Part shown: piece by piece, positions 4,188 through 22,817 of the stretch
Layout: each line of letters starts with the position of its first letter
Position numbering within the stretch: position 1 is the first letter of the stretch
IMG/VR virus record: IMGVR_UViG_3300043313_000428
Span: 1-22,817 of that record
Origin: a virus
Length of the DNA: 22,817 nt
Strand: one strand, 5' to 3'
The notes under the pieces: model-generated
What the model was told of the DNA's origin: nothing
Seen by the model: only the letters and a program-made list of their open reading frames with translations
Databases searched by the model: none
Translations under genes and position numbers: made by a program

Positions 4188-4196
4188 GTGTCATCC

Positions 4197-6803: not shown

Positions 6804-7531
6804 TAGCGCCCCTCCTCGTTTCTGATGGCCACATCGCACCGACAGCCGATGACATTGTCTGGGCTCCCGCTCGGGTCTCCCGGGAACATGAGCGGCTCAT
6901 CGCAGACCTGGAACGGCATAAAGATGGGGACGGTCTGGTTGTTGGCAGCCTGGTGACATGGACGTACACGCTGATCTTGCTCCGTACGCCAGGTCTTGTT
7001 CAAGACCCTTCCGGTGATTCGAGACTGTTCGATACCGGCGGCCATAGTCCCGGCCCCATAGGCTCGGGTTACCTCAGTGACAGCGATGGTGTGCGCCCGT
7101 CCCGGCCACCGATCGCTACCCGTGTAGGACAAGACACGATCGACTCTGTCAGCGAGCTGATCTAGAGACTCACCAGCGTTGATACCGTCGGTCAGCTCAG
7201 CAAAGATCAGGTTGGCCACTTCATCCGGGATCCGCACCAACAGGTTCCGGACGTCAGCCAGGTAGGCCACGACGAAGGCATGCCGGGACACTGGCGGCAC
7301 ATCGGTGGCCTCCGACCAGGCGCCCAGCGCAATCTCCCCGATGGTGGTGAGGATCGTGTCCACCTCCCGGTCCCACATCGGCTGCGTGGCGTAGACAGCG
7401 GTCGGGTCAGGGACCATCTTGTGACTGCGGAACGGGGCCATCACCGCCTCCCGGGCACGGTCAAGCCACCGCCGGAGTGCGCTCGATACGACGCTTTCCA
7501 GGCGGGACTCATCGGATGCCCTACTCCCCAT
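6803..7531 (-). CDS. MuF-type phage head morphogenesis protein
   Basis: A 242-residue protein of the SPP1 gp7/Mu gpF class, which joins portal and capsid during head assembly and is often packaged as a minor capsid protein. The start ATG at 7531 lies inside the last codons of the portal gene (11 bp overlap); a longer frame upstream only shadows the portal. The body is helical, with the conserved stretch HTIAVTEVTRAYGAGT followed by WRTEQDQRVRPCHQAANN and the family-ending NVIGCRCDV close to the C-terminus. It ends in a TAATG overlap with the protease gene, so translation is coupled. No toxin domain is fused here; the ART-like domain that some phages attach to MuF proteins is instead in the giant protein two genes downstream. 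Confidence 0.9.
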   Translation of the reverse strand: MGSRASDESRLESVVSSALRRWLDRAREAVMAPFRSHKMVPDPTAVYATQPMWDREVDTILTTIGEIALGAWSEATDVPPVSRHAFVVAYLADVRNLLVRIPDEVANLIFAELTDGINAGESLDQLADRVDRVLSYTGSDRWPGRAHTIAVTEVTRAYGAGTMAAGIEQSRITGRVLNKTWRTEQDQRVRPCHQAANNQTVPIFMPFQVCDEPLMFPGDPSGSPDNVIGCRCDVAIRNEEGR

Positions 7532-9428
7532 CCAGCAGTCCCATTCGACGCAGGTACTCGGCCAGAAGCTCAGGGTGGTGAGGCTTCTCCCGTACCAGGA
7601 GCGTGGTGCAGTACCCATCCAGTGCGGTGCGTAGCGCGGTCGTGTCCATGTCTGGGTCCACATGGGCGGCCAGGAGTGAGAGGTGATCCCAGGCTCCGGC
7701 CAGGAGCTTGTGGGCGTGCTCCTCGTCGTTGACATGGATCTTGGTGTGTAGCTCGTGCGGCTGGATGTTGAACTGAGTGCACAGCGACCGGTTCACATTG
7801 CCGGCCAGCTTCTTGCCAGCCAGCTCCATGGCTCGCAGGACCGTGGCGTTGGCGAGGAAGAACCTGCTCACCGTGCTGGCCGACGCGGTAACGGCGGCTG
7901 GCGCTGCTGGTGGCCCACCGGGGGCGTTGATGGCCGAGGTCTCCTGCGGGATCGGAGCTCCCGGGGTGGCACTGATCCCGGTGGGCGGTGCCGGCGGAGG
8001 CGGCGGACCGGCTCCGCCCATGCCAGGGGCAGGTGTCTGGGGGGTGACGACAGTGCCAGCGGGGAGGATCTCCTCGGTGAAGCCAGCCACCTTCCGGACT
8101 GCCGCGATCTGGAAGAGGTTCGGGTCGCGGAGCATCAGTTCCCGGGTGAAGCGAAGTAGGTCTTCGGTGTCGTCGGGGGCGTCGGAGATCTTGTAGTCAC
8201 CGGACAGGAGAACGGTGGCCTTAGAGACCAGACCCGCGTCGTACATCTCCCGGGTGTCTTTGAGACGCTCTGGCCGCACCGTCAGTGGTGCGGTGTCGTA
8301 CCAGAAGACGTAGCGATCCGGGTCTTCCTTGATCGCCTTCAGCGCCGGCTGGAGATAGGCAGTCGTCAGGGCGTCACAGATCCGAACCATCAACGGTACA
8401 ATGTGGACGTTGATCTGTCCTTCCATGATCTGCCACGCTCCCCAGTGATTGGCTTCCCCGGCTCCTGTCAGGATCGACGGGTCGATGTCCATGGCGAGGG
8501 CGAACCGTCTCAACGCCTCAGCCCGCAGATCCATGGCCTGCTTCGACAGGTCAGAGCCGAACGTGACCAGCTCGATCTTCCCGAGAGCTTCGGTCGGCAT
8601 CTCCACGATGGTGGGCATGACCCCGGCCGCCGTGCCCTCACCTTTCAGGCCGGTGGATCCGACCTTCATCAGAAGACTGGTCAGCCCCTCAGCACCCGGG
8701 ATCTCTGTGTCGTCGTCCGGGAAAGAAGTCTCTTTGGGGATGGGCAGGAGGCCGGCACTGAACAGCCGGGAGTCAATCTGGGCGAACACATATCGGGTGA
8801 GGCGTTCAATCTCCCACAGCATCGGCATCGCGGCCCGGGTCGGGGAGTCAGCCCAGAGTCCTCGCCGGGGATGGGGAGTCCACATCCGGATGATGATGTC
8901 CGTCTCTGGGTTCAGCTTCTCCGGTGTTCCGTCGTAGGTCGTCATCTCTACGACACCGGTCCGGGCGTACCGTTTCAACTCCGAGCAGGACAGCACGAAC
9001 CATTCGTCAGACTCATAGTCGGTGCCCCGACCGATGACGTAGGCGTCACCAGCGATGGTGAGGTTGATCCCCAGAGCTCGGAGAGCCTCCGCCTTGTGGG
9101 GTGGACCACCGAAGAGAGAGTCAGCGAGGCCGGCGATCTTCTTGTTGGTGACCTCTTTCTGGACCCGGCCGTTCTCATCCACCTGGGCGACATAGATACG
9201 GACCCGGGAGCAGGCTGAACCGATCCAGTTGGCGACAAACCGAAGCTCACCGATGATGTCGTAGAGTCGCCACGCCTCCGTCTGCCACGTGTCATCACCG
9301 AACTTGTAACTACGCCATCCCATCCCATCGAGGGAACGAATCCGGGCGGCCGAGGCTACGAGACTGGGTGGTGAATCGTGGGGGGCCGGTGAGGCGACTG
9401 TGTTGGCCTTCTGCCTGCCCAGACGCAT
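7521..9428 (-). CDS. Portal protein
   Basis: A 635-residue portal protein, expected to form the dodecameric ring at the capsid vertex through which DNA enters and leaves. The ATG at 9428 follows a strong AAGGAGTAGCCC ribosome site. Recognisable portal features are the early helical region DIIGELRFVANWIGSACS, the core AGDAYVIGRG, IRMWTPHPRRGLWADSP, MAMDIDPSILTGAGEANHWG-like residues in the clip/stem part, and EGQINVHIVPLMVRICDAL. A Gly/Pro-rich spacer (PPPPPAPPTG) near residue 460-490 leads to a roughly 120-residue helical C-terminal extension. It lies between the DUF1360-like gene and MuF gene, the usual order after the terminase. Confidence 0.9.
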   Translation of the reverse strand: MRLGRQKANTVASPAPHDSPPSLVASAARIRSLDGMGWRSYKFGDDTWQTEAWRLYDIIGELRFVANWIGSACSRVRIYVAQVDENGRVQKEVTNKKIAGLADSLFGGPPHKAEALRALGINLTIAGDAYVIGRGTDYESDEWFVLSCSELKRYARTGVVEMTTYDGTPEKLNPETDIIIRMWTPHPRRGLWADSPTRAAMPMLWEIERLTRYVFAQIDSRLFSAGLLPIPKETSFPDDDTEIPGAEGLTSLLMKVGSTGLKGEGTAAGVMPTIVEMPTEALGKIELVTFGSDLSKQAMDLRAEALRRFALAMDIDPSILTGAGEANHWGAWQIMEGQINVHIVPLMVRICDALTTAYLQPALKAIKEDPDRYVFWYDTAPLTVRPERLKDTREMYDAGLVSKATVLLSGDYKISDAPDDTEDLLRFTRELMLRDPNLFQIAAVRKVAGFTEEILPAGTVVTPQTPAPGMGGAGPPPPPAPPTGISATPGAPIPQETSAINAPGGPPAAPAAVTASASTVSRFFLANATVLRAMELAGKKLAGNVNRSLCTQFNIQPHELHTKIHVNDEEHAHKLLAGAWDHLSLLAAHVDPDMDTTALRTALDGYCTTLLVREKPHHPELLAEYLRRMGLLDGE

Positions 9429-9431
9429 GGG

Positions 9432-9722
9432 CTACTCCTTCCGGTCCGCGAATAGACCGGTCACGTGCGAGGCGGCAGGGATAGCCAAGACGGCGATCAC
9501 CCATTGGTTAGGAAACAGGACGGCGACCGGCATTACCGGGACAGCCACCCAGACAGAGGTACACCAAGGACAATGAGCAAGGTAGGCAGCCATCGACTTC
9601 TCGCCCCACTTGTTCACCACCCAGCGTCGGTAGCCGACCGTGAGCTGATCCTCCACGAGGAGGCGCGTCAGTCGCGCGACCGCAAGGGCACTAACGACTA
9701 AAGCGATGATCAGCATGGACAT
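9432..9722 (-). CDS. DUF1360-like small membrane protein
   Basis: About 96 residues with hydrophobic segments at both ends and the motif HCPWCTSVWVAV in the middle, which together with VARLTRLLVEDQ and the RRWVVNKWG stretch fits DUF1360, a small membrane family found next to terminase or portal genes in many actinophages. Its function is not known. The gene lies 34 bp after the terminase stop and 3 bp before the portal start, so it is part of the packaging operon. Start choice is uncertain: ATG at 9722 or 9716 fits the family, while a TTG at 9746 would add eight residues; no good Shine-Dalgarno precedes any of them. Confidence 0.7.
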   Translation of the reverse strand: MSMLIIALVVSALAVARLTRLLVEDQLTVGYRRWVVNKWGEKSMAAYLAHCPWCTSVWVAVPVMPVAVLFPNQWVIAVLAIPAASHVTGLFADRKE

Positions 9723-9756
9723 AGCATATGGTCCAGCTGGTATCAAGGGATAGTTC

Positions 9757-11184
9757 TCAGATCAGGTTGGCGATCCCGTAGACGCCCTGATCCCACCCGA
9801 GGTTGTACTTCGACGGGTCCCCAGCACCCATTCTCCGACGCTCCCCAGCCATGAGGTGAAGGCAGGCATGAACGAGGGCATCCATCCGGTCCGGGGATTC
9901 TCGGGTGCTCTCCGGGTCGAACATCACCATCTCGTTTTCCAGCTCTTCAAACGTGCCCACCATGTGGAGGCGTCCCTGCTCTCCACGTAGGGCCACAGGC
10001 TCCGCACGAGTTTTCTTACCGTGCTTCGCGTGCACTGCTTTCATGGGGGGAGACGTGTGCCGTGGGAACAGTCCTATATCTATCGAGTCCTGGTAGGTGT
10101 CACGGAGCACCTCGAACAAGTACCGCTTCCCCAGGTTCTCCTCGTATACGACCAGGTCAGCTTTGAAGTCTGCGCAGGCCCGCCAAATAGCCATGGCGGC
10201 TTGGCGACCAGTGAAGTTCACCGACGAGTCGGACAGCACGTACATCTCGTTCTTGGTTGTCCGGGCGGCCACAATGATCCCGAAGGTGGCGTCTTCCCCG
10301 GTCAGGTTAGGGTCACAGCCCACCACAGTGGAGATGATCTCGTCTGGAACCTCCGTGACCCGGTTGCGTTCAATGTCCCCGCGCTTGAACAGCGCACCAG
10401 AGCCGATCTCCAGCATCTTCCCGTACAGCTCCTGCTGGCCCAGGTCGGTGCCGGCGTAGCGGAGCTTCAGCTCCCGCAGAACGTGCGCGGACAGGTTGGT
10501 TGCGTTGTCGAAGGTCGACCCACCCATCAGGTGGATGGTCCCGTCGGCTCTCTTCAGCCACTCCTGGAGGAGCTTGATCGGCTTCGGGGTGGTGGTGGCG
10601 AAGCACCGGGGGTGATCATCTATGAGGTCTGTACGTAGAGAGGGGAGGATCCCCTCATACCAGGACTCATAGGGCTTAGGCCACTTACAGATCTCATCGA
10701 CCCAGGCTCCGGCGGCGTTGTAGCCACGACCAACGTCCTCGTCGTCCGCTCCCTCGGCATAGATCTTGGCGCCGTCCGGGAACAGGATCATGGGACGGGG
10801 TGACTGTTTGTACCGGTGGTTGACACCCTTTCGGTTGAGTACCCGCAGCAGTCCGGCCGGTCCCTCCAGGCAGATCGTCCGGGTGTCCGCCAACGTTTCA
10901 CCGATGAGTAGCCATTCGGTTGGCTGGCCGGACCGGTCGAACGGGTGCTTCAGTACCTGCTCCGTCAACCACTCCGACCCGGCCCGGGACTTCCCCCAGC
11001 CACGACCGGCCAGGGCCAGGGCTACCAGCCAGTCACCCTTGGGTGGCATCTGTTCGGGCCGGGCGACATACCACCACTCGTTGCGGAGCATCTCCCCGAC
11101 GATCTCTGAGGGCAGGGTCGCGATCCACTCGTCCCGGAGGTTTCTTGGGAGAGCGGCGACACGTTCCGCTAGGGAATGTCCCAC
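9757..11184 (-). CDS. terL: Terminase large subunit
   Basis: The packaging ATPase-nuclease, 475 residues from GTG 11184. Walker A is GRGWGKS (residues 60-66) in ALAGRGWGKSRAG, Walker B is AWVDEI (D163, E164), and the ATCatt-like coupling region follows with FATTTPKP. The RNase H-like nuclease half shows the acidic triad candidates D291 in VVGCDPN, E348 in LVVYEE and D435 in PDRMDALVHA. ARPEQMPPKGDW just before Walker A is typical of actinophage enzymes. A TTG at 11220 would lengthen the protein by 12 residues, but neither start has a Shine-Dalgarno. I prefer GTG 11184 because a TACTGT box lies 6 nt before it, which would give a leaderless mRNA. It heads the left-arm operon. No small terminase subunit was recognised in this window. 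Confidence 0.92.
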   Translation of the reverse strand: MGHSLAERVAALPRNLRDEWIATLPSEIVGEMLRNEWWYVARPEQMPPKGDWLVALALAGRGWGKSRAGSEWLTEQVLKHPFDRSGQPTEWLLIGETLADTRTICLEGPAGLLRVLNRKGVNHRYKQSPRPMILFPDGAKIYAEGADDEDVGRGYNAAGAWVDEICKWPKPYESWYEGILPSLRTDLIDDHPRCFATTTPKPIKLLQEWLKRADGTIHLMGGSTFDNATNLSAHVLRELKLRYAGTDLGQQELYGKMLEIGSGALFKRGDIERNRVTEVPDEIISTVVGCDPNLTGEDATFGIIVAARTTKNEMYVLSDSSVNFTGRQAAMAIWRACADFKADLVVYEENLGKRYLFEVLRDTYQDSIDIGLFPRHTSPPMKAVHAKHGKKTRAEPVALRGEQGRLHMVGTFEELENEMVMFDPESTRESPDRMDALVHACLHLMAGERRRMGAGDPSKYNLGWDQGVYGIANLI

Positions 11185-11190
11185 ATGATC

Positions 11191-11220
11191 ACAGTACGGG
11201 CGTTCTACTGGTGGACGCAA
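11191..11220 (-). promoter_or_regulatory. Candidate promoter of the left (head) operon
   Basis: On the minus strand TTGCGT (11220-11215) is followed after 18 bp by TACTGT (11196-11191). Initiation 7 nt later falls on the GTG of the terminase gene at 11184, so the mRNA would be leaderless. The boxes are seen in the sequence; activity is inferred. Confidence 0.45.
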
Positions 11221-11228
11221 GACTGAGC

Positions 11229-11258
11229 TGGTATCCCAGGGGTGGGTGGGGGTAGCAT
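11229..11258 (+). promoter_or_regulatory. Candidate promoter of the LAGLIDADG-like gene
   Basis: TAGCAT at 11253-11258 could serve as a -10 box; the -35 position (TGGTAT, 11229-11234) is weak. The CCCAGGGGTGGG motif occupies the space between them, in the same arrangement as the promoter at 19164-19193. Confidence 0.3.
11235..11246 (-). promoter_or_regulatory. Copy 1 of the CCCACCCCTGGG motif (candidate operator)
   Basis: The minus strand reads CCCACCCCTGGG, identical over 12 bp to the sites at 17485 and 19170. It lies in the divergent region between the terminase and LAGLIDADG-like genes, 6 nt before a possible plus-strand -10 box and 14 bp upstream of the minus-strand -35 box, so one bound protein could affect both arms. 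Confidence 0.5.
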
Positions 11259-11300
11259 GGGCTTCTCACACACAGCTCGCTGGTCCGAGTGGGTGAGAGA

Positions 11301-11336
11301 ACAGGGGATCGGGTCCCTCCGTGCCCGGTCCCCTGT
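11301..11336 (+). promoter_or_regulatory. Leader hairpin upstream of LAGLIDADG-like gene
   Basis: A 13-bp stem (11301-11313 with 11324-11336, one G-T pair) closes a 10-nt loop. It ends 22 nt before the ATG at 11359 and just upstream of the GAGAGGAAA ribosome site. It has only three T after it, so it is a poor terminator; a leader, stabilising or attenuator role is more likely. Confidence 0.55.
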
Positions 11337-11358
11337 TTCCATCGGAGAGGAAACGGAT

Positions 11359-11883
11359 ATGGCGATACCGATGCAGAAGCTGGGCTGGATGGCCGGCATC
11401 ATCGACTTCAAGGGACGTGTTGTATACAAAAACAATAAGACTCGTAAGACCCTCCAGATTGTCCTCATCGTGGAGACCAAGGAAATGGCCATCATCCGAG
11501 GACTATCTGAACTAACCGGTACCAGTCCGGAACTCCAGTCGGCACAGGTGAAGCCAGAGTTCATGCGACGTAGTTGCCACGAGCACTGTCCCGAGGCCCA
11601 CATCCATGTGGGTGACCAGGATCTTGTAATGCCTGAGATCGCCCGCTGGACCATCACCGGAGCCGCGATGGTTGTGGTCCTGTCGAGCCTCCTCCCATTC
11701 CTCAGGACGGATCGAGGATGGACGGAAGCTATCGAGTCTGCTACCAACCAAACGGTCTTCTGGGGTCGTGGCGCCACGGCTGTCCGGGCATCCCTGCGAC
11801 GTCTCCAGGAGATCGGGTGGGACATGCCCATCCTCTACAGCCAGGCGCTACTGGAAGACGACAACGAAGACGAAGAGGAGTAG
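11359..11883 (+). CDS. LAGLIDADG-like protein
   Basis: A 174-residue protein starting at ATG 11359 after GAGAGGAAACGGAT. The N-terminal LGWMAGIIDFKGRVVYK resembles one LAGLIDADG helix, followed by the beta-rich LQIVLIVETKEMAIIRGL that homing-type domains use at the DNA interface. Only one such motif is visible, and the glycine/acidic pair at the helix end is altered (IIDFKG instead of the usual acidic DADG or DGEG), so nuclease activity is doubtful. A C/H cluster (CHEHCPEAHIH) sits in the middle, and the C-terminus is strongly acidic. Proteins of this kind recur as single genes in actinophages, where a structural-scaffold or regulatory DNA-binding role is as likely as homing. It is a one-gene unit, closed by the terminator at 11907-11947. 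Confidence 0.65.
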   Translation: MAIPMQKLGWMAGIIDFKGRVVYKNNKTRKTLQIVLIVETKEMAIIRGLSELTGTSPELQSAQVKPEFMRRSCHEHCPEAHIHVGDQDLVMPEIARWTITGAAMVVVLSSLLPFLRTDRGWTEAIESATNQTVFWGRGATAVRASLRRLQEIGWDMPILYSQALLEDDNEDEEE

Positions 11884-11906
11884 ATTAGACAAGACATGGT
11901 TCCCCG

Positions 11907-11947
11907 GGAAGATCCCCTCCGTTGTTGGCGGAGGGGATCTTCCTTTT
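11907..11947 (+). terminator. Rho-independent terminator after the LAGLIDADG-like gene
   Basis: A perfect 15-bp stem (11907-11921 with 11929-11943) with a 7-nt loop TTGTTGG is followed by TTTT. It starts 24 nt after the stop codon at 11883. Confidence 0.9.
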
Positions 11948-11967
11948 GTCGTAGAGTCGATGATAAT
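11944..11967 (+). promoter_or_regulatory. Candidate promoter of the Ig-like gene
   Basis: The gene between terminators 11907 and 12502 needs its own promoter. Right after the first terminator come TTTTGTCGTA, TAGAGT (11952-11957) and GATAAT (11962-11967). GATAAT is a fair -10 box with an expected start about 25 nt before the start codon; no clear -35 box is visible. The second terminator is also followed by TTTTGTCGTA and TAGAGT. Confidence 0.3.
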
Positions 11968-11998
11968 TGGTCCGTAGACACGTTAGGAGGGACCAGCC

Positions 11999-12490
11999 AT
12001 CGATGTAGACCTGGGCGATGCAGTCCTGTCCGTTAACCTCCACGTCAAGGGACTCCGTCGTTTCCGCATCAAGTGGCACATCGGCGTCGCCACGGATACC
12101 ACACCAGCGGACAGGGTAATCAAACCCCCACCGTACTTTGCCTCAACAGGAAGGTTTGATGTTGCCATGGATCTCCAGGCAGACAAGCAAATTCCTCTAT
12201 CCCTCCAGTTCACCGACGAGATGGACAACCCGGTTCCGACGCCAGCCGGTACCACGGCCGTATACACGGTTGACGACCCGACCGTCATCAACCTGACTGA
12301 CAACGGTGACGGCACCGCCGTGGCGGCAGCGGTGGGTGTGCTCGGTACCGCGACGGTCCATGTTGCGGTCTCGGTCGATGGTGTCCCCGTCATCACCGGA
12401 GACCTCCAGATCATCGTCATGGCAGGTCTCGCGGAGCGGGTCACGATCGTGGCTGGTCCTCCGGTTGAGGTCACGCCCGACACCCCCTGA
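11999..12490 (+). CDS. Ig-like (Big_2-type) domain protein with non-canonical start
   Basis: About 163 residues if read from ATC 11999, the codon placed 8 nt after a perfect AGGAGG. The frame opens after a TAG at 11984, and no ATG, GTG, TTG or CTG before 12011 fits, so the start appears non-canonical. A conservative start is ATG 12167 (107 residues), but AGGAAGG lies 12 nt from it and the upstream 56 codons look coding, with C/G third positions and beta-type residues. The C-terminal half has a bacterial Ig-like pattern: IPLSLQFTDEMDNPVPTP, AVYTVDDPTVINLTDNGDG, AAAVGVLGTATVHVAV. Such domains decorate phage capsids and tails and bind cell-surface sugars weakly. It is a single-gene unit insulated by terminators on both sides. 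Confidence 0.7.
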   Translation: MDVDLGDAVLSVNLHVKGLRRFRIKWHIGVATDTTPADRVIKPPPYFASTGRFDVAMDLQADKQIPLSLQFTDEMDNPVPTPAGTTAVYTVDDPTVINLTDNGDGTAVAAAVGVLGTATVHVAVSVDGVPVITGDLQIIVMAGLAERVTIVAGPPVEVTPDTP

Positions 12491-12501
12491 GCGACGGTTC
12501 C

Positions 12502-12541
12502 AAGAAGCACCCCCAGGACGTCCCCGGGGGTGCTTCTTTTT
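12502..12541 (+). terminator. Rho-independent terminator after the Ig-like gene
   Basis: A 13-bp perfect stem (12502-12514 with 12526-12538) with an 11-nt loop runs into a T-tract. It begins 11 nt after the stop codon at 12490. Confidence 0.9.
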
Positions 12542-12568
12542 GTCGTACCTCCCCGCTAGAGTGATCAC

Positions 12569-12583
12569 ACCCCACCGTGGGGT
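12569..12583 (+). promoter_or_regulatory. Palindrome in front of the helix-turn-helix gene (candidate operator)
   Basis: ACCCCAC-C-GTGGGGT is a perfect inverted repeat with 7-bp arms, 20 bp before the TTG start and just after a possible -10 box TAGAGT (12557-12562). It shares the CCCAC/GTGGG character of the repeated CCCACCCCTGGG motif. A transcript would also fold it as a hairpin. Confidence 0.45.
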
Positions 12584-12603
12584 GGGAAGAGGGGAGGGTC
12601 CAG

Positions 12604-13017
12604 TTGACTGCCAAAGAGGAGCAGCTCGGCCGCGACATCGTGGCTAGCGGGCGCCTCAAACAGCTCCGGGAGGAGCTTGGCCTGACCCGGTCAGCCATGG
12701 CGGAACTGCTACACACGTCACCGATCACTTACACCTCCTGGGAGAAGAAACCGGAGGTGAACCTGTGGGCGGAGACCGCGACCAGGCTCGGCCGGTTCTA
12801 CAGCAACTCTGTGGCGGAGCTTGACTACGTTCGGTCAGTCCTGAAGATCGACATGACGGACCTGGTTCCCCTGTACATCGCCTCGACCATGATGGGGATC
12901 TCCCAGGAGCTGCTCCTGAAGCAGTACCGCGACGAGAAGTTCAATGCCGTGGATCTTGGCATCCTCGGCCTGTGGGTGGAGAAGAAGGTCCTCAACGTCC
13001 TTAGGCAGGGCGAATGA
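12604..13017 (+). CDS. Helix-turn-helix DNA-binding protein
   Basis: A 137-residue protein. The TTG at 12604 follows GGGGAGGG by 5 nt; GTG 12577 is also in frame but falls in the palindrome. Residues about 17-60 form an HTH_3/XRE-like domain: LKQLREELGLTRSAMAELL, then HTSPITYTSWEKKP, where the second helix and the tryptophan after it match lambda-Cro type repressors. The rest is helical with no recognised domain (LYIASTMMGISQELLLKQY resembles a second helix-turn-helix). It overlaps the exonuclease gene by ATGA, so it is the first gene of the replication operon. Its position next to a palindrome suggests autoregulation; it is the best candidate in the window for the protein that binds the CCCACCCCTGGG sites, though that is inference. 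Confidence 0.75.
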   Translation: MTAKEEQLGRDIVASGRLKQLREELGLTRSAMAELLHTSPITYTSWEKKPEVNLWAETATRLGRFYSNSVAELDYVRSVLKIDMTDLVPLYIASTMMGISQELLLKQYRDEKFNAVDLGILGLWVEKKVLNVLRQGE

Positions 13018-13859
13018 TCGCGTGCGTCTACTGCGGTCAGGAGATGACCCCGCTCATCGAGGAGGGACAGACCTCGCACCCCTCGTGCGCCCCACCGTTC
13101 GAACCTCTCGGGAATGAGTACGACCCGTTCGCCGCGATGCTCAAGCACCAACTCACCGAGATCATCCGCTGGGCTGACTCATGGAATCCTCGGGCCAAGC
13201 AGGTCGAGATCGGACCGTCGGAGATCGGTGACCCCTGCGACCGGCGCATCGGCTACCGGCTCGGGGAGGTGCCACCTGTCAACACCCAGTTCGATCCGTG
13301 GGCCGCGATTGTGGGGACAGCTGTCCACTCCTGGCTGGACCAGAGCGTGAGGCTGTGGATGGACTGCCACAACTCTGAGGACTGGTCCACCGAGACGAAG
13401 TTGTCCATCAACAAGTTCGTCCAGGGTCACTCGGATCTGTTCTGGCACGAGCAACACACTGTGATCGACTGGAAGACCGCCGGCCCCACAGTCATGAAGA
13501 AGCTACGGGATGGGGGACCCTCCGACGGATACATCATCCAGACCCAGATCTACGGCTACGGGTATGAACGTGCCGGCTGGCCGGTGAAGAGGGTGGCGTT
13601 AGTCTTCCTTCCGAGGGCCGGTCGCCTGAAAGACATGTACGTATGGACTGGGCAGTACGACAGATCCGTAGCTGAGCACGCACTGGGGAGGATGTACAAC
13701 ATTGCCCGTAAAGTTGTCTCCCTGGAGACATCGATACATCCACATAAATGGGAACAGATTGATGCTGTTCCCTCCAATAGTTGCGGGTTTTGCCCGTGGT
13801 ACAACTCCATGAAACCAAAGGAAGAAGGAGCGAATGACCGAGGATGTCCTGGCCGCTGA
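13014..13859 (+). CDS. Cas4/RecB-type PD-(D/E)XK exonuclease with zinc finger and Fe-S cysteines
   Basis: A 281-residue nuclease. The N-terminus carries a zinc finger (C4, C7, H22, C25). The nuclease core follows: VEIGPSEIGDPCDRR with C75, GTAVHSWL with H105, GHSDLF with D141, VIDWKTAG with D152 and K154 as the D-X-K pair, and QTQIYGYGY as motif with Q176/Q178. The C-terminal CGFC (C257, C260) plus C278, together with C75, give the four-cysteine layout of Cas4/AddB iron-sulfur nucleases. The family degrades DNA ends in recombination. The gene starts inside the stop of the HTH gene (ATGA) and overlaps the next gene by 26 bp. There is no CRISPR system nearby, so a phage recombination or replication role is expected. 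Confidence 0.85.
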   Translation: MIACVYCGQEMTPLIEEGQTSHPSCAPPFEPLGNEYDPFAAMLKHQLTEIIRWADSWNPRAKQVEIGPSEIGDPCDRRIGYRLGEVPPVNTQFDPWAAIVGTAVHSWLDQSVRLWMDCHNSEDWSTETKLSINKFVQGHSDLFWHEQHTVIDWKTAGPTVMKKLRDGGPSDGYIIQTQIYGYGYERAGWPVKRVALVFLPRAGRLKDMYVWTGQYDRSVAEHALGRMYNIARKVVSLETSIHPHKWEQIDAVPSNSCGFCPWYNSMKPKEEGANDRGCPGR

Positions 13860-14070
13860 GGGTATCGAGCCTCAGGATCTTGACGAGGCGAAAGAACTCG
13901 ACGAGGAGGAGACGCTACCAGAGAAGGGAACCGCCGAGTGGTACAACATGGTGGCCCGGCTCATGCAGTACCGCGACCACTGCGGGAAGATGATTACCAA
14001 GTGGCAGAGCAAGACCGTCGAGACTGAGCGGCTGATTCATGAACTCACCGGAGAGCCTCAGTCCTACTGA
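13834..14070 (+). CDS. Small acidic protein of the replication operon
   Basis: 78 residues from ATG 13834, preceded by GAAGAAGGAG within the tail of the exonuclease gene. The first 35 residues are very acidic (DEAKELDEEETLPEKG), and the remainder is a helix with a possible coiled coil (WQSKTVETERLIHELTG). I do not recognise a family. The deep overlap with the exonuclease suggests translational coupling and perhaps a partner protein. Confidence 0.75.
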   Translation: MTEDVLAAEGIEPQDLDEAKELDEEETLPEKGTAEWYNMVARLMQYRDHCGKMITKWQSKTVETERLIHELTGEPQSY

Positions 14071-14109
14071 GATCGGTGACCGGCTCCTCAGGTCTCAGAA
14101 ACAGGAAAA

Positions 14110-14130
14110 CCCGGCCCCTGGGGGACCGGG
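14110..14130 (+). promoter_or_regulatory. Leader hairpin upstream of SSB-candidate gene
   Basis: CCCGG (14110-14114) pairs with CCGGG (14126-14130), then one C-A mismatch and three more pairs close a TGG loop. There is no T-tract. It ends 31 nt before the ATG at 14162. Confidence 0.45.
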
Positions 14131-14161
14131 TGGTAACAACCGGAACAGTACAGGAGCAGAG

Positions 14162-14806
14162 ATGGAATTCGAAACCTTCGTTGGTGGTGGCGCAGGACTG
14201 AACCCGGACAAGCTGATTGGTCACCTCCTCCTGGTGTGGGCGATCAGCTACATTCCGAACAGCCCGACTCAGTACAGTCGCCCGGATCGTCCCTCCGATG
14301 TGATCATCGTGGACGTGGTGGACCTCGACACTGGTGCGATCGGACGCGAGTCGTGGTGGCGCCAGGCTCGGCTCATCCGGGACTTGAAGCCCAAGATCGG
14401 TAAGAAGCTCCCCATCCTGGTGGCCATGACCACGGACGTGGCCACCCAGGGGGGCAAGCCTCCGTATCAGTTGATCGACATGATGAGTAACCCGCAAGCT
14501 GTTGCGAAAGCAAATGGTTGGTTCATGGCGAACCCAGACTTCGTCGTGTCGGAACCGTCACCGGTAGTAGTACCGGTGACGGTGTCGACCCCCCAGCCTC
14601 AGCAACAGGTTTCCCAAGGGCCACCACCGGCCTGGGCAACACCTCTGCCGTCACAGCCACAGCAACCTGCCTGGATGCCGGCGGAAGAGTACTGGCCAGC
14701 CCAGGAGCCCCGGAGCGCCCCGCCGGTGCAGTACCCGCCAGCGCCACCCCGGCCGATGACCCAGGCCGAACAGATGGCTCAGGAGAAGGAGACGTACGGG
14801 TACTGA
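14162..14806 (+). CDS. Replication-cluster protein with Pro-rich tail, SSB candidate
   Basis: 214 residues from ATG 14162 after CAGGAGCAGAG; an in-frame upstream start at 14039 would overlap the acidic gene and cross the hairpin. The first 120 residues look like a compact beta-rich fold (LIGHLLLVWAISYIP, DVIIVDVVDLDTGAIG, WWRQARLIRDLKP, LPILVAMTTDVATQGG) of a kind placed near primases in actinophages. The last 80 residues are disordered and rich in Pro and Gln. The layout, a small beta-rich domain plus a long flexible tail, sits where phages often encode their single-stranded DNA-binding protein. The tail does not end in the acidic DDIPF-type tip of bacterial SSB (it ends KETYGY). SSB function is inference only. 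Confidence 0.75.
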   Translation: MEFETFVGGGAGLNPDKLIGHLLLVWAISYIPNSPTQYSRPDRPSDVIIVDVVDLDTGAIGRESWWRQARLIRDLKPKIGKKLPILVAMTTDVATQGGKPPYQLIDMMSNPQAVAKANGWFMANPDFVVSEPSPVVVPVTVSTPQPQQQVSQGPPPAWATPLPSQPQQPAWMPAEEYWPAQEPRSAPPVQYPPAPPRPMTQAEQMAQEKETYGY

Positions 14807-14823
14807 GTTGCGCGATACGCAAC
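14807..14823 (+). other. Inverted repeat directly after the SSB-candidate stop
   Basis: GTTGCG-CGATA-CGCAAC, 6-bp arms, starts at the base following the TGA and is followed by AACAAAATGG and a relatively AT-rich stretch to about 14872. It could be an operator, a weak terminator or part of an origin next to the primase; nothing decides between these. Confidence 0.35.
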
Positions 14824-14942
14824 AAAATGGCTTCACAGACACATCTAAATATGGGACTTAGTCAATGTCTTCGTGGGGTGTAGCGCCAGGAAGGTCTGAT
14901 GGAGGAGGATGACCTCCACCGGGGATCTTCGGGCATTGAAAA

Positions 14943-14977
14943 GGGGGCCTCGCGGGCCGAAAACTGCCGAGGCCCCC
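14943..14977 (+). promoter_or_regulatory. Leader hairpin upstream of primase-helicase gene
   Basis: GGGGGCCTCG (14943-14952) pairs with CGAGGCCCCC (14968-14977) around a 15-nt loop; no T-tract follows. The primase ribosome site GGAAAGG starts 4 nt after the stem, so the structure could influence ribosome access. Confidence 0.6.
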
Positions 14978-14994
14978 CTAGGAAAGGAACTGGC

Positions 14995-17442
14995 GTGAGC
15001 GTAGCCCAAGTGGCCCAAAGTTGGCAACAGGCTGGAGTCAGTGTCCTACCGATTCCCGCCAATCAATCCAAGCGTCCCGACCGTAGCTGGGCTCAGTACC
15101 AGGTCAAGGCCCCGACGCTGCGGGAGGTCAACGAATGGTGGGGCAACGGTCGCTCACAGTACGGAATCGCCCTGATCTGCGGGTCTGTGTCGGGCAATCT
15201 GGAGATGACCGAGCTGGAGGGCCGGGCCACCCACGGCGCCACCCTGACGGAGATCCTGAACCACTGTGATCGTCTTGGCATCCGACATGTGTGGGAATTC
15301 CTGACAAGTCACAACGGATTCACCGAGATGTCACCTACCGGTGGTATTCACCTCCTCTACCGCATCTCCGACCACCCAGTCCCTGGCAACACCAAGATTG
15401 CCCGCCGGCCGGCCACCGCTGAGGAACTGATCGAACGCCCTGGTGACACTGTCAAGGTCTTGGCCGAGACACGGGGTGAGGGTGGCTACGTCATCACAGC
15501 ACCGAGCCCTGGAGGCTGTCACCCTTCGGGTGAGCCCTGGGTAAGGATCGCAGGAGAGTATGGTGTTCTCCCGTTTATCACCTGGGAGGAACGGTGCACA
15601 CTCCACCAGGCCCTATACGATGCCCTGGACGAGATGCCCTCAGTTCTGCCTCCCCAACAGCTACCAGCCGCGCTCCCCTCCTCCCCCGTTGGGTCGAGCG
15701 CGGCTGGTGCTCTTGACCTGAGACCTGGTGACCGCTGGGCGGACACGATCACGTTCGGCGAGCTGCTCTCCGCCAAGGGCTGGGTCATGTCCCACCGGAT
15801 GGGTGAGGAGGAGTATTGGGTTCGTCCCGGCAAGCACCCTCGGGATGGCCACTCCGCCACGGTGAACTACAAAGGCTCTGGGCTCCTGTACGTGTTCTCC
15901 ACAGCGGTGGAGGGTTTGGAGGCCGAGACCTCGTACACCAAGTTCGGGGCCTACGCCTACCTGTTCCACAACGGGGACATGAAGGCCGCCGCGTCGGAAC
16001 TGGCCGGGCGCTGGGGGACGCCACGGGTAGAGATCGCTGACTTCGAACCAGAACCGATCCCGAGTAACGTATCTGAACCGCTAGATGTGACGTTCACGTG
16101 CGACGACGTTGGGAATGCGATGCGCCTGGCTTACAACATTGAAGGAAGATTTAGATATCTTTATGAAGAGAAGAAATGGTATGTCTGGAAAGATACGTGT
16201 TGGAAACTAGATCGGTCCGATGAACTGGCTCAAGCCTGGATAGCGTGCACCGACGAGATGCGGAAATCTCAGGACGAAACGGTACGTAAATGGGCAGCCA
16301 AGAGTCGTAGCGCTCCACGCCTGAGAGCAGCAATCGATCTACTACGCTCCCTGCCAGGCATCACTGTGTTCGCTGAAGACTTCGACTCGCACCGTCATCT
16401 AGTCAACCTTGGCAACGGTGTCCTAGATCTCCAGGACGGAACGCTCCTACCGCACGACAAGTCTCTGATGATGACCAAACTCTTCAATGCTCGCTACGAT
16501 CCGCAGGCCCAGTGCCCTGAGTTCGAGGCGTTCATGGCTTCCGCTCTGCCAGACCCCAGCATCAGGTCCTATGTGCAGCGAGCGCTGGGTTACACGCTGT
16601 TGGGTGACGCTGACCAGCGGTGCGTCTTCCTTATCCACGGACCGTCCGGTACCGGCAAGTCGACACTGACCGAGACGATGCGCGAGCTATTCGGGGGTTA
16701 CGGGACCACGGCGGCGGCCTCGACGTTCAAGACCTCTGATCGTGGCGCCGGAGCCAGCCCTGACCTTCACGGCCTGCGAGGGAAGCGGTTCGTGAGCACC
16801 TCGGAGACCTCGGTGGGCACCCTGTTCGACGAGGACCTGATCAAAAGGATCTCTGGTCGTGATCAGATCCGGTCACGCAGCCTGTACGAGGACTTCACTG
16901 AGTGGACCCCTCAGTGCACGCTGTGGGTAGCCACCAACAACCCACCGAAGTTCTCCTCCGATGACGACGCGATCTGGCGTCGGGTGAAGCTCATCCCGTT
17001 CCTTACCGTGTTCATCGGCGACGGGGAACGCTCCGACATGGCCCGCCGGACTCTGGCCCCGGAGCGGGATGGGATCTTGAACTGGCTCCTGGCCGGTCTG
17101 CGCGACTACCAGGCCAATGGTCTGGGCGAGCCGGAACCGGTGCGGGCGATGGTGGCCGACCAACGGGCCCAGTCGGACTCGGTGGCCCAGTTCGTCGACG
17201 AGAAGATCACTGACGGAATCCTGACCATGGATCCGAGCAAGTCGATCCGGACGTCGGAGATCTTCGCCATGTACCTGGCCTGGTCGCGGGAGGTGGGCGA
17301 GCGAGGAGTGGGTAGGCGCCGCTTCTTCAACCGCTTGCAGTCCAACTTCCCGCACCTCACGCACGAGAAGGTGGGCCACACTTTCTGGGTCGGTATCGGC
17401 CGTACGGACGGGGCCGGGATTCTGGGGACTATCAGCCCTTGA
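14995..17442 (+). CDS. Bifunctional primase-polymerase / SF3 (D5-like) helicase
   Basis: An 815-residue replication protein. GTG 14995 follows GGAAAGGAACTGGC and gives the usual prim-pol opening, AGVSVLPIPANQSKRP. The N-terminal archaeo-eukaryotic primase domain (about 1-210) shows NLEMTELEG with E73/E75 as metal ligands and GGIHLLYR with H119. A spacer and second alpha-beta part extends to about 350. The D5_N-like domain covers roughly 370-530 (NLGNGVLDLQDG). The superfamily 3 helicase has Walker A GPSGTGKST (549-557), Walker B region KRFVSTSET and sensor LWVATNNPPKF, then the arginine-finger region IWRRVKLIPF. It should prime and unwind DNA at the phage origin. An alternative ATG at 14899 with its own AGGAAGG would add 32 residues. 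Confidence 0.93.
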   Translation: MSVAQVAQSWQQAGVSVLPIPANQSKRPDRSWAQYQVKAPTLREVNEWWGNGRSQYGIALICGSVSGNLEMTELEGRATHGATLTEILNHCDRLGIRHVWEFLTSHNGFTEMSPTGGIHLLYRISDHPVPGNTKIARRPATAEELIERPGDTVKVLAETRGEGGYVITAPSPGGCHPSGEPWVRIAGEYGVLPFITWEERCTLHQALYDALDEMPSVLPPQQLPAALPSSPVGSSAAGALDLRPGDRWADTITFGELLSAKGWVMSHRMGEEEYWVRPGKHPRDGHSATVNYKGSGLLYVFSTAVEGLEAETSYTKFGAYAYLFHNGDMKAAASELAGRWGTPRVEIADFEPEPIPSNVSEPLDVTFTCDDVGNAMRLAYNIEGRFRYLYEEKKWYVWKDTCWKLDRSDELAQAWIACTDEMRKSQDETVRKWAAKSRSAPRLRAAIDLLRSLPGITVFAEDFDSHRHLVNLGNGVLDLQDGTLLPHDKSLMMTKLFNARYDPQAQCPEFEAFMASALPDPSIRSYVQRALGYTLLGDADQRCVFLIHGPSGTGKSTLTETMRELFGGYGTTAAASTFKTSDRGAGASPDLHGLRGKRFVSTSETSVGTLFDEDLIKRISGRDQIRSRSLYEDFTEWTPQCTLWVATNNPPKFSSDDDAIWRRVKLIPFLTVFIGDGERSDMARRTLAPERDGILNWLLAGLRDYQANGLGEPEPVRAMVADQRAQSDSVAQFVDEKITDGILTMDPSKSIRTSEIFAMYLAWSREVGERGVGRRRFFNRLQSNFPHLTHEKVGHTFWVGIGRTDGAGILGTISP

Positions 17443-17467
17443 CGTTGCCCCGTATCGGATATAGGCT
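17439..17467 (+). promoter_or_regulatory. Promoter for the ParB-like gene pair
   Basis: TTGACG (17439-17444), 17-bp spacer, TAGGCT (17462-17467): a close match to actinobacterial house-keeping promoters. The -35 box overlaps the stop codon of the primase gene. Transcription would start near 17474, upstream of the repeated motif at 17485. Confidence 0.6.
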
Positions 17468-17484
17468 TCAGCCATTACAACCGA

Positions 17485-17498
17485 CCCACCCCTGGGTG
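17485..17498 (+). promoter_or_regulatory. Copy 2 of the CCCACCCCTGGG motif (candidate operator)
   Basis: CCCACCCCTGGGTG, identical over 14 bp to the copy at 19170. Here it lies downstream of the expected transcription start and 20 nt before the GTG of the ParB-like gene, so it would be in the leader. The inner CACCC-CT-GGGTG is an inverted repeat. Confidence 0.5.
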
Positions 17499-17518
17499 AG
17501 GTCAGTAAGGGAGGTGTA

Positions 17519-18364
17519 GTGAATACACGAATCATGACTCGGCAGTGTGTGGTCGGCAACGAGCGTGAGCCCCGTCTGTCTAAGGCCGGGATCGAGGAAC
17601 TCGCCGTGGACATCCGGGATCATGGGATGAAGCATCCCATTCTGGTCTACGACCAGTACTCGGAGCTGCTCAGCGGCAAGGTGGACATCAACACGATCGA
17701 CCAGAGTAGATACATGGTCATCGATGGATTGGCGCGGCTTCAAGCGTCAGAGTTGCTCGGCTACGTAACGATCGAAGCGATGATCACTGATGACCTGGCT
17801 GAGGCTTGTCACCTTCTGACGAAGTCGATGCCCGCACTGCTGGATCCAGTTCGACTGGGAGAAATCCTCGATGACCTTCAACCTCTTGTTGAACGACGCA
17901 GGGGTATCGCATTCCTGGCTCGTCGAGGAAAAGATGCCACCGAGCAAGATTTCTTGACCGCATCTGAATTGATCGGCAAGACATTCGGTCTCAGTGTCAA
18001 TGAGATCAAGAGGTTTAAACTCATCTATCGTACCCTCCGTCGCTCAGGCGAGGAAGGGGCCCAACTCCTCGATGCGGTACGTCGCAATGAACTGACGTAT
18101 CACATGGCTTATTCGAGGATCAAGCGAGTCGCCAAGCCAGTAACCCGAACGTCCAAGGAACAGATCGAAACGGTTCAGGTACTGGACAATCTCACCCGCT
18201 CACTGCTCAACATCATCAGAGCTGGCGAGCAAATGGCCAGTGGTCCGGTTGGTATTCCAGCAGAGGACCTAGAACGCTCCCTTGTGGAGCTACGCAAAGG
18301 CCGGAAACGGCTCTCCACAGTGATCCACACCCTAGAGAGGGAACTGAACAGTTATGACGGATGA
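17519..18364 (+). CDS. ParB-like (ParB/Srx fold) protein 1
   Basis: 281 residues. GTG 17519 follows GGGAGGT very closely (3 nt); ATG 17534 is an alternative with a longer spacing. Residues about 20-95 match the ParB N-terminal pattern: IEELAVDIRDHGMKHPILV, then YMVIDGLARLQASELLGY, with IDGLAR in place of the usual GERR/DGHR box. A helical region at about 140-205 (LIGKTFGLSVNEIKRFKLI) looks like the helix-turn-helix that follows in ParB proteins. The rest is coiled-coil-like. CTP binding, nuclease activity or partition function cannot be told from sequence alone. The gene overlaps ParB-like protein 2 by 11 bp. The middle part has lower GC than its neighbours. Confidence 0.8.
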   Translation: MNTRIMTRQCVVGNEREPRLSKAGIEELAVDIRDHGMKHPILVYDQYSELLSGKVDINTIDQSRYMVIDGLARLQASELLGYVTIEAMITDDLAEACHLLTKSMPALLDPVRLGEILDDLQPLVERRRGIAFLARRGKDATEQDFLTASELIGKTFGLSVNEIKRFKLIYRTLRRSGEEGAQLLDAVRRNELTYHMAYSRIKRVAKPVTRTSKEQIETVQVLDNLTRSLLNIIRAGEQMASGPVGIPAEDLERSLVELRKGRKRLSTVIHTLERELNSYDG

Positions 18365-19160
18365 AGCAAAGTTCACGGAAGAGTGGATCCTGGTCGGTGA
18401 CCTGGAGATCGACCGTGAGGTCCAGCGAAACAACATCGACCTCAAGAAGGTCGAGCGGATCAAGGCCAACTACAACCCTGGCGCGCTGGGCGTCATCACG
18501 TGCTCACGACGCAACAAGGTGACCACGGTGGTGCTGGACGGCCAGCACCGGGTCCAGGTGGTGAAGGAGCTGACCGACAACGAGGGTGAGGTCCTCTGTC
18601 ATGTGTTCTCGGGTCTCACGTTGGCCGAAGAGGCGCAGATGTTCCTGGATCTCAACGCTGGCAACCAACCTTCTCTTCTGGAGAAGTTCCGTGTGCGGGT
18701 GGTTGCGGGGGATGAGGGGGCCATCGACATCACCAACATGGTCAAGTCCTACGGCTGGACCATCGGCCCCTCCACCCAAAACGGCACCCTGCAGTGCGTG
18801 GGTGCGCTCGAAAGCATCTACCGGTTGTCCAAGAAGCTGGAGTTTGAGCCGGACCTGCTCCAAGCGGTGATCATGACGATCACCCGTGCGTGGGGCACTG
18901 ACCGGGACGGCGGCAACGCTGTACTGCTTCAGGGCCTGGCGTTCCTGATCAGCGAGCACGGCAGTCTGCTGGACCTGAAGCGTCTGGAGACCTGCCTGAA
19001 GTCCTATCAGGGCGGCCCGATGGGGCTACACACCGACGCCGTGCAGCTGGCGGCTCTCCGCAAGATGAGGGTGGCGATGGCCGTGGCCGAGCAGGTCACG
19101 GAGGCGTACAACAAGGGACGCAAGAACAAGCTCCTCCCGCCGTGGAGGCGACGGAAGTAG
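18354..19160 (+). CDS. ParB-like DGQHR protein 2 (DUF6551-like)
   Basis: 268 residues, starting within the end of the upstream gene. The N-terminal half follows the ParB-like pattern VGDLEIDREVQRNNIDLKKV, PGALGVITCSRRN, then VVLDGQHRVQVV with the D62-GQHR box, and AQMFLDLNAGNQPS, which fits the phage DUF6551/DGQHR class. The C-terminal half is helical with no recognised domain and ends in a basic tail (PPWRRRK). Two adjacent ParB-fold genes in one operon suggest a joint role in DNA binding, modification or partition; no ParA is present here. Confidence 0.8.
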   Translation: MTDEAKFTEEWILVGDLEIDREVQRNNIDLKKVERIKANYNPGALGVITCSRRNKVTTVVLDGQHRVQVVKELTDNEGEVLCHVFSGLTLAEEAQMFLDLNAGNQPSLLEKFRVRVVAGDEGAIDITNMVKSYGWTIGPSTQNGTLQCVGALESIYRLSKKLEFEPDLLQAVIMTITRAWGTDRDGGNAVLLQGLAFLISEHGSLLDLKRLETCLKSYQGGPMGLHTDAVQLAALRKMRVAMAVAEQVTEAYNKGRKNKLLPPWRRRK

Positions 19161-19163
19161 CAG

Positions 19164-19193
19164 TTGCACCCCACCCCTGGGTGTGTGTATGAT
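19164..19193 (+). promoter_or_regulatory. Promoter of the DUF2637-like gene with operator in the spacer
   Basis: TTGCAC (19164-19169), 18-bp spacer, TATGAT (19188-19193). The spacer is almost entirely the repeated motif CCCACCCCTGGGTG. A protein bound there would block RNA polymerase directly. Confidence 0.6.
19170..19183 (+). promoter_or_regulatory. Copy 3 of the CCCACCCCTGGG motif (candidate operator)
   Basis: CCCACCCCTGGGTG begins right after the -35 box; the 12-bp core ends 6 nt before the -10 box, the same spacing seen at 11235-11258. Confidence 0.55.
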
Positions 19194-19279: not shown

Positions 19280-19924
19280 ATGACGCTCGACAAGAAACTG
19301 AACGAACTCCGGTGGTTGAGTCACCTCAGCCGAGGAGTCATGATCGTGGGCTTCGTGGCCTCGGCCGGCGGTAACGTCCTCCACGCGAGGAAGACCGCAG
19401 TCGGGATTGCGATCGCCCTAGCTGCCCCGGTGATGCTGTTCCTGGCCTTCGAGCTAGTGAGCAGGATCCCACTCCGACCCGAAGCGAGCCGAGTGTTCAA
19501 GTTCGCTCGCGTAGCGGCCACGACGGCCATCGCGGTCATCATGGCCTTCATCTCCTACCGGGCCCAGCGGCAAGCCTTCTGGGACCAGACAGGAGACCAC
19601 TACACGGCGATGCTCCTCCCTGGAGCTATCGACGCCCTGATGGTGGTGGGCTCGATCTCGCTGATCGAGCTGGGCATCCAGATTCGCAACCTGGAGGCCT
19701 ACCAGGCCGGCGGGGCGCTGAAGATCTCCAAGCCCAAGGAGGAGGTCCCAGTCCCAAAGAAGGAGGAGCCCTCCAAGAAGGAGCGGATCGCGGCCATCCT
19801 GGCGCGGTCCCCGGACCTGGACGTGAAGGAAATCGCCACTTTGGCGGACTCCAGCTACAACTACGCGGCGGCGATCGTCGGCAAGCTCCGTGCTCCGACG
19901 ATTGAGGAGCCGGTGGCAGTGTGA
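19280..19924 (+). CDS. DUF2637-like membrane protein with C-terminal helix-turn-helix
   Basis: 214 residues from ATG 19280 after AAAGGGGGACGCA. Four membrane segments are visible near 18-35, 40-60, 76-94 and 110-135 (VGIAIALAAPVMLFLAFEL, AATTAIAVIMAFISYRAQR, GAIDALMVVGSISLIELG). The pattern, with PGAIDALMVVGS before the last helix, fits DUF2637, a family common on Streptomyces plasmids and integrative elements, where it is linked to spread between hyphal compartments. A Lys/Glu/Pro-rich linker (150-165) leads to a small cytoplasmic domain, KKERIAAILARSPDLDVKE and the following helix, that looks like a winged helix or HTH. It has its own promoter and long structured leader. Confidence 0.75.
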   Translation: MTLDKKLNELRWLSHLSRGVMIVGFVASAGGNVLHARKTAVGIAIALAAPVMLFLAFELVSRIPLRPEASRVFKFARVAATTAIAVIMAFISYRAQRQAFWDQTGDHYTAMLLPGAIDALMVVGSISLIELGIQIRNLEAYQAGGALKISKPKEEVPVPKKEEPSKKERIAAILARSPDLDVKEIATLADSSYNYAAAIVGKLRAPTIEEPVAV

Positions 19925-21230: not shown

Positions 21231-21548
21231 ATGAATCGTAGGGGACTTCTGAAACTTCTCGGGCTCGGTGTCGTGGCGACCCAGCTCCCGGAGCCTGAGC
21301 TTCGCGTGGTTGAGCGTCCGCTGCTGACCTACGTGCCGGCCATGAGCGGGTTCATCACCGCCGCTCACGGATGGTGCGCCCCCAGCTCCACCATCTACGA
21401 CTCACATCTCTCGGAGATGACTGAGTCTGGCCTGCAAGATCTCTCGCAACTTGGCATCCATTGGGTGGTGGCGCCAGCTGTAACGGCCACTGTCGCAAAT
21501 GATGTGCTTGTAGATCCATGCTCGGTCCCGTACCGGCAGAGCATCTAG
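21231..21548 (+). CDS. Possible small protein with twin-arginine-like signal
   Basis: A 105-residue frame starting MNRRGLLKLLGLGVVATQ, which fits a twin-arginine or simple signal sequence (RR-x-LLK). The next stretch is unremarkable. The last 49 codons are antisense to the 3' end of the sigma-like gene, and no Shine-Dalgarno is present. It fills a gap of 189 bp that otherwise has no minus-strand gene. It may be real, perhaps leaderless, or only the first half may be meaningful. Confidence 0.35.
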   Translation: MNRRGLLKLLGLGVVATQLPEPELRVVERPLLTYVPAMSGFITAAHGWCAPSSTIYDSHLSEMTESGLQDLSQLGIHWVVAPAVTATVANDVLVDPCSVPYRQSI

Positions 21549-21920
21549 GGCCGCCGCGATCTCCCCGTGGTGGTAGGCGGCCTCCAGCTCGGCGTACACC
21601 GCGTCGGAGCTGACCAGCTCATCCACCCAGTCCCAGTCTGGGTCGACTGGCACCGCAGGAGCGTCTCTACGGTGTCCACGGGCTCCTGGGGTACCTGTCC
21701 ACAGGTCCCGGCGTAGACAGTCCACCATCCGCAGCCTGGCGGCCGTGGTGAGGTAGCTGGCCTCGGCGCCCCGACCCGGGTCGAAGGTCTTCAGGGCCTT
21801 CCACATGGCGATCCAGCCCTCCTGGGCCAGGTCCAGCCAGTCGTTGGGACGCTTCGGGGCCAGCTCCACTGAAACCTTCAGGAGCCAGCCCCGGTAGCGC
21901 GCCAGGATCTCGTCAGTCAT
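21402..21920 (-). CDS. Sigma-70-like factor (region 2 plus weak region 4)
   Basis: 172 residues from ATG 21920, which overlaps the upstream stop by 8 bp; a TTG five codons earlier is possible. Residues about 28-75 match sigma region 2: DWLDLAQEGWIAMWKALKTF, DPGRGAEASYLTTAARLR and MVDCLRRD. An acidic spacer (VPVDPDWDWVDEL) leads to a region 4-like helix pair (AAALDALPVRDRAWIYKHI) that is shortened and lacks a clear recognition helix. Such proteins in actinophages may redirect host RNA polymerase. The TANNNT boxes without good -35 elements upstream of several starts are compatible with this, as inference. Confidence 0.75.
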   Translation of the reverse strand: MTDEILARYRGWLLKVSVELAPKRPNDWLDLAQEGWIAMWKALKTFDPGRGAEASYLTTAARLRMVDCLRRDLWTGTPGARGHRRDAPAVPVDPDWDWVDELVSSDAVYAELEAAYHHGEIAAALDALPVRDRAWIYKHIICDSGRYSWRHHPMDAKLREILQARLSHLREM

Positions 21921-22597: not shown

Positions 22598-22766
22598 TGA
22601 TGCCTCTTCCCCGCCCGGTATGGATCCCGAGCGCGTAGACGGTGAGGACACAGATGGCCACTGAGACTCCGATTAGCCATCCGGGTATTTCCCAATAGCT
22701 GGATACCGCCAGGAAACCTGCGATACCTGCTAAAGCCAAGCTCTTCAGACACTCTCTCCAGTTCAC
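22530..22766 (-). CDS. Small two-helix membrane protein
   Basis: 78 residues from GTG 22766. Two membrane segments (LALAGIAGFLAVSSYW and WLIGVSVAICVLTVYALGI) are followed by a basic tail (GRGRGISELERRGVRQG) that overlaps the next gene by 68 bp in another frame. TAGAAT lies 7 nt before the GTG and no ribosome site is visible, so the mRNA may be leaderless and this may be the first gene of the minus-strand cluster. Confidence 0.6.
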   Translation of the reverse strand: MNWRECLKSLALAGIAGFLAVSSYWEIPGWLIGVSVAICVLTVYALGIHTGRGRGISELERRGVRQGDRQDLRHTRKQ

Positions 22767-22773
22767 ACCCCCA

Positions 22774-22779
22774 ATTCTA
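22774..22779 (-). promoter_or_regulatory. Candidate -10 box of the minus-strand cluster
   Basis: TAGAAT, 7 nt before the GTG at 22766. Just upstream the minus strand reads AGGGGTGGG (22791-22783), nine of the twelve bases of the repeated motif. Confidence 0.35.
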
Positions 22780-22817
22780 CTACCCACCCCTCCCCGGGGC
22801 TACCCCTCCCGGATACC

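Follow-up and report, generated by a model that had tools for sequence, protein, structure and literature searches.

Cluster A mycobacteriophages, including L5 and TipsytheTRex, carry many operator or stoperator copies of 12-13 bp, located between genes and in promoters, and their repressor, a small protein encoded by the phage, binds DNA through two domains, a helix-turn-helix (HTH) and an HTH variant (PMC9283540). The GC-tract element described here resembles this system in its short repeated sites between genes and in promoters, and in the two-domain plan of a candidate regulator encoded at 12604-13017. It differs in site sequence, in lying mainly within promoter spacers, and in its near-palindromic form; the motif was found in both orientations within promoter spacers, unlike cluster A stoperators, whose orientation follows transcription. 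The number of sites per phage was about nine, compared with more than 20 in cluster A. The repressor of L5 or TipsytheTRex was absent among the matches listed for the candidate regulator in a profile search of solved structures and in fold searches.

Start-associated sequences of cluster K phages are likewise short conserved repeats before many genes in one phage group (PMC3203893). The elements studied here lie between the -35 and -10 hexamers, unlike those of cluster K. The cluster K sequences sit at translation starts. MerR operators also lie between -35 and -10, and the C-terminal domain of the candidate regulator is predicted to have a MerR/Xis winged-HTH shape; however, the protein carries an N-terminal Xre domain and lacks the MerR effector domain. 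MerR activators have 19-20-bp spacers, whereas the association found here peaked at 17-18 bp. With intergenic enrichment, fixed placement in promoters and conservation at orthologous promoters, the GC-tract element would join a known kind, the multi-site phage operators.

Source record and motif copies in the window

The window, i.e., the whole stretch of DNA analyzed, is the 22,817-base virus record IMGVR_UViG_3300043313_000428. IMGVR_UViG_3300042834_000003 (57,922 bases; G001, also L009) was 100% identical to window positions 1-16451 and represents the same phage, extended. A terminase search of IMG/VR yielded 26 loci with 62-100% identity, including records of 55-64 kb. Queries with ParB-like protein 1 and primase returned nothing or the same phage only. 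No DNA-level match to cultured phages was found, and cultured phages offered no informative homologue of the DUF2637 protein. Terminase and primase proteins showed identities of at most ~39% among the matches listed, many of which were actinophage proteins. The source clade looks like a group of uncultured, actinophage-like viruses. For clade-wide statistics, we used 20 records or part-records (687 kb), among them G001 and 18 related records. The window features considered are as follows.

11228-11258 (+), weak promoter CTGGTA-19-TAGCAT facing the LAGLIDADG-like gene, with the inverted motif (11235-11246, -) in its spacer
11359-11883 (+), LAGLIDADG-like ORF of weak family assignment (PHROG HNH, E 5.5e-4; no Pfam match)
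12568-12584 (+), palindrome CACCCCACCGTGGGGTG, 20 nt before the HTH gene and preceded by a -10-like TAGAGT
12604-13017 (+), candidate regulator of 137 aa, Xre HTH_3 plus MerR/Xis-like winged HTH, clade-conserved
17439-17496 (+), promoter TTGACG-17-TAGGCT (17439-17467) and downstream motif (17485-17496), before ParB-like gene 1
17519-18364 (+), ParB-like protein 1
18354-19160 (+), ParB/DUF6551-like protein 2, clade-conserved
19164-19193 (+), DUF2637-like gene promoter TTGCAC-18-TATGAT, whose spacer contains CCCACCCCTGGG (19170-19181); orthologous promoters with C-tract spacers in relatives
19280-19924 (+), DUF2637 protein (E 1.2e-5), downstream of the 19164-19193 promoter
21402-21920 (-), sigma-70 region 2 protein (Pfam E 1.2e-12)
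22774-22802 (-), promoter TAGCCC-17-TAGAAT, whose spacer contains the partial motif GGGGAGGGGTGGG; a small ORF begins downstream, near 22763

The preliminary description had reported three exact copies of CCCACCCCTGGG, and all three were found with the strands and hexamers as claimed, at 11235-11246 (-), 17485-17496 (+) and 19170-19181 (+), each between genes. The last occupies the spacer of its promoter, as proposed. The first had been assigned the same place in a second promoter; it does end 6 nt before TAGCAT, but the sole -35, CTGGTA at 19 bp, is a weak one. The copy at 17485 lies downstream of its promoter, as stated, starting 17 nt past the -10 and thus in the leader rather than the spacer. 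The nine-base partial copy was located at 22783-22791, inside the spacer of the minus-strand promoter. Just one of the three exact copies lies within a promoter that has a good -35, a point against the operator reading proposed below.

Markov simulations predicted 0.01-0.03 copies of CCCACCCCTGGG per window. Nevertheless, 21-79% of simulations produced some 12-mer with three copies, and the real window contains six such 12-mers; therefore, the window count is not decisive, and we rejected window-only motif frequency as evidence. Position and conservation in relatives, rather than frequency in the window, decide whether the motif is real.

Placement and conservation across the clade

Exact CCCNCCCCTGGG occurred at 17 distinct sites in the clade sample, compared with a mean of 0.9 and a maximum of 6 for 300 permuted patterns. 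Equal frequency inside genes had been named as a finding that would speak against the motif; the comparison favored it, as 16 of the 17 sites avoided the called genes, even though these take up 73% of the DNA. The home-made gene caller missed small genes, so the intergenic share is somewhat overestimated. Nine of the 17 sites fell wholly within TTGNNN-17/18-TANNNT spacers (versus 0.25% of intergenic windows), and a -10 hexamer was at most 8 bp away at 15 of them (background 6.7%). The remaining two share one orthologous position, following the primase gene: in the window (17485) and in G009 (51043, 18 nt), a -10 precedes the element by 17-18 nt. Sequences, spacing, conservation and intergenic placement were observed directly.

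An EM motif derived from spacers was CCC[ACT]CCCCTGGG, present in about half of intergenic 17/18-bp promoters. The element is a GC tract broader than the 12-mer of the preliminary description and independent of orientation. Variant sites carried CCCC[AT]CCC without TGGG; this variation might exceed that expected of a classical operator and count against the operator reading. C/G-tract spacers, by a definition broadened after site inspection, made up 13/31 of intergenic TTG/TA pairs at 17 bp and 12/30 at 18 bp, compared with 0-12% at the remaining spacings from 10 to 25 bp; the association peaked at 17 and 18 bp only. When the spacing test was redone without gene calls under the same definition, they accounted for 27/79 pairs at 17-18 bp versus 12/663 elsewhere (Fisher p ~9e-20, which overstates the strength because related records are not independent). 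The exact-motif test is free of the weakness in definition. At 17-18 bp, such spacers were absent from 25 unrelated high-GC viral contigs (0/45) and from four cultured actinophages (0/13; 0/58 together), and all 120 unrelated contigs gave 1/1260.

The element at the DUF2637 promoter was kept in seven lineages, including one (G022) in which it is degenerate.

Window: TTGCAC-CCCACCCCTGGGTGTGTG-TATGAT
G009: TTGACA-CCCACCCCTCCCCTGGGA-TACTGT
G016: TTGCAC-CCCACCCCTCCCTGAGGG-TAGGAT
G006: TTGCAC-CTTACCCCTCCCTATGTA-TAGGAT
G012: TTGTCA-CCACCCCCTCCCTGTGTA-TAGGAT
G021: TTGTGC-ACCCCCCACCTGGGTAG-TACAGT
G022: TTGACA-CCCCAGAGATCCCTGG-TACAGT (spacer degenerate)

The DUF2637 gene is inverted in relatives with respect to the window, indicating that the element travels with its promoter. 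At the place in L015 orthologous to 11228-11258, we found TTGACA-19-TATAGT with the motif in the opposite orientation. Before the terminase gene, the element lies in an oppositely directed promoter, with the motif in either orientation. The preliminary proposal that promoter spacers harbor a common cis-element is therefore strongly supported clade-wide by site counts, spacing and orthologous promoters. A search of IMG/VR with the exact whole-promoter pattern found no further virus, and the 21-mer CTACCCCCACCCACCCCTGGG occurred elsewhere only in the same phage and as a single copy in one contig of no obvious relation.

Separately, a second promoter class, TRTTCA-17-TAAWGT, without a GC tract, was observed upstream of terminase in L022, L017 and L027; it is possibly a late promoter.

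Candidate regulator and rival explanations

With some reserve, we favor the reading that the GC-tract element is the operator of a phage-encoded regulator, repeated across promoters of the clade. Protein binding, repression, early or middle timing and the regulator's identity are our inferences. Copies of the operator would serve early and middle promoters across this uncultured actinophage-like clade, and the regulator, usually bound between -35 and -10 of sigma-70-type promoters, would block RNA polymerase; some copies lie just downstream of the -10 rather than in the spacer. Being a near-palindromic run, C then G, the operator could work in either orientation. The motif has the look of an on/off switch acting across the whole phage, and its probable reader is a small, conserved DNA-binding protein of the phage itself.

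The most likely regulator would be the two-domain protein of 12604-13017. Its N-terminal domain is an Xre-type HTH_3, and its structure model (pLDDT 91) contains two predicted DNA-binding domains. The modeled C-terminal winged HTH matched BldC, mycobacteriophage Xis and MerR proteins over 51-53 residues (rmsd 1.7-2.3 A, Z 7-8), a match that reflects a common fold and by itself is no proof of function. Searches of solved structures gave general HTH similarity only, and cultured phages held no informative homologue of the protein. Orthologues with 38-50% identity were present in every record with a primase gene, and their recognition-helix region, xxxTYxxW/C, is largely kept; the regulon, first spotted by eye in a single fragment, extends to these relatives. 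In the distant members G022, G023 and L031, the protein is kept but sites are degenerate or no exact ones are present, which counts against the reading. That this protein reads the motif is a reasonable guess based on co-conservation only. We propose, tentatively, that this Xre HTH plus MerR/Xis-like winged-HTH protein (137 aa) could be the master regulator of the clade, reading an orientation-independent GC-tract operator in spacers that has been retained over large divergence. The perfect palindrome CACCCCACCGTGGGGTG upstream of its gene overlaps a two-mismatch motif site (12575-12586, -) and is a possible autoregulatory site; relatives carry G-tracts at this place, which could equally be ribosome-binding sites.

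The fixed position in the 17/18-bp spacer would also suit an intrinsic promoter element, a GC spacer that, needing no binding protein of its own, tunes recognition by host or phage-modified RNA polymerase, and the phage does encode a sigma-region-2 protein. However, a comparison with related records turned up no counterpart of this sigma-like gene, and in both control sets, the unrelated high-GC viral contigs and the actinophages, spacers lack the element. It is also present in both orientations and, at one orthologous place, downstream of the -10; the spacer and leader positions together favor a protein-bound operator over a core-promoter element, and we consider the intrinsic explanation unlikely. 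If a protein is bound, it could instead be a phage activator or an early-to-middle switch, as several sites have a poor -35 (11228 and G001 4658), like activator-dependent promoters, and the modeled C-terminal domain of the candidate resembles MerR/BldC/Xis. Most spacers here are nonetheless 17-18 bp with good hexamers, unlike those of MerR activators, which makes an activator distinctly improbable.

Less probable again, the element would serve a host transcription factor as its operator, letting the phage sense the state of its host. The element does occur throughout a clade that may share hosts, but a prophage search by terminase in genome contigs found none, and we know of no actinobacterial factor with a GC-tract site. 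Chance repetition of a GC-rich 12-mer, which the window simulations would readily allow, is scarcely credible, as clade-level conservation, spacing and the intergenic tests already refute it. With these results, a phage clade known from metagenomes only gains a promoter map that can be tested and a candidate for its master regulator, and the pair of operator and protein might be developed into an orthogonal switch for high-GC hosts.

Further upstream of the HTH gene, past a terminator-like hairpin, window 12530-12562 carries TTGTCR-N11-TANNNT or a close variant, conserved in ~8 relatives; its 11-bp spacing matches no standard sigma-70 promoter.

Inverted sequence matches and parS-like sites

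The last 70 bp of the window (22748-22817) are the reverse complement of G001 6108-6177, and G001 1-86 is the reverse complement of G001 4915-5000. Behind these matches may lie either an inverted repeat of greater length or promoter regions duplicated where the assembly broke.

Operators of temperate-phage immunity would go with integrase or partition genes that allow lysogeny. No tyrosine integrase, serine integrase or ParA was found in 12 records, which may be fragments, and parS-like sites were present. The perfect bacterial parS core GTTTCACGTGAAAC occurred in eight copies in G001 (20, 612, 932, 2104, 2396, 2818, 4596 and 4968), four in G006 (59494-62199), four in G016 (2383-3977) and one in G010 (32070), with no near-misses. 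As these clusters occur in a clade in which no ParA was found, they suggest that the phages may use the ParB system of the host. More than 120 other IMG/VR DNA stretches carry the 16-bp parS consensus, in some cases clustered.
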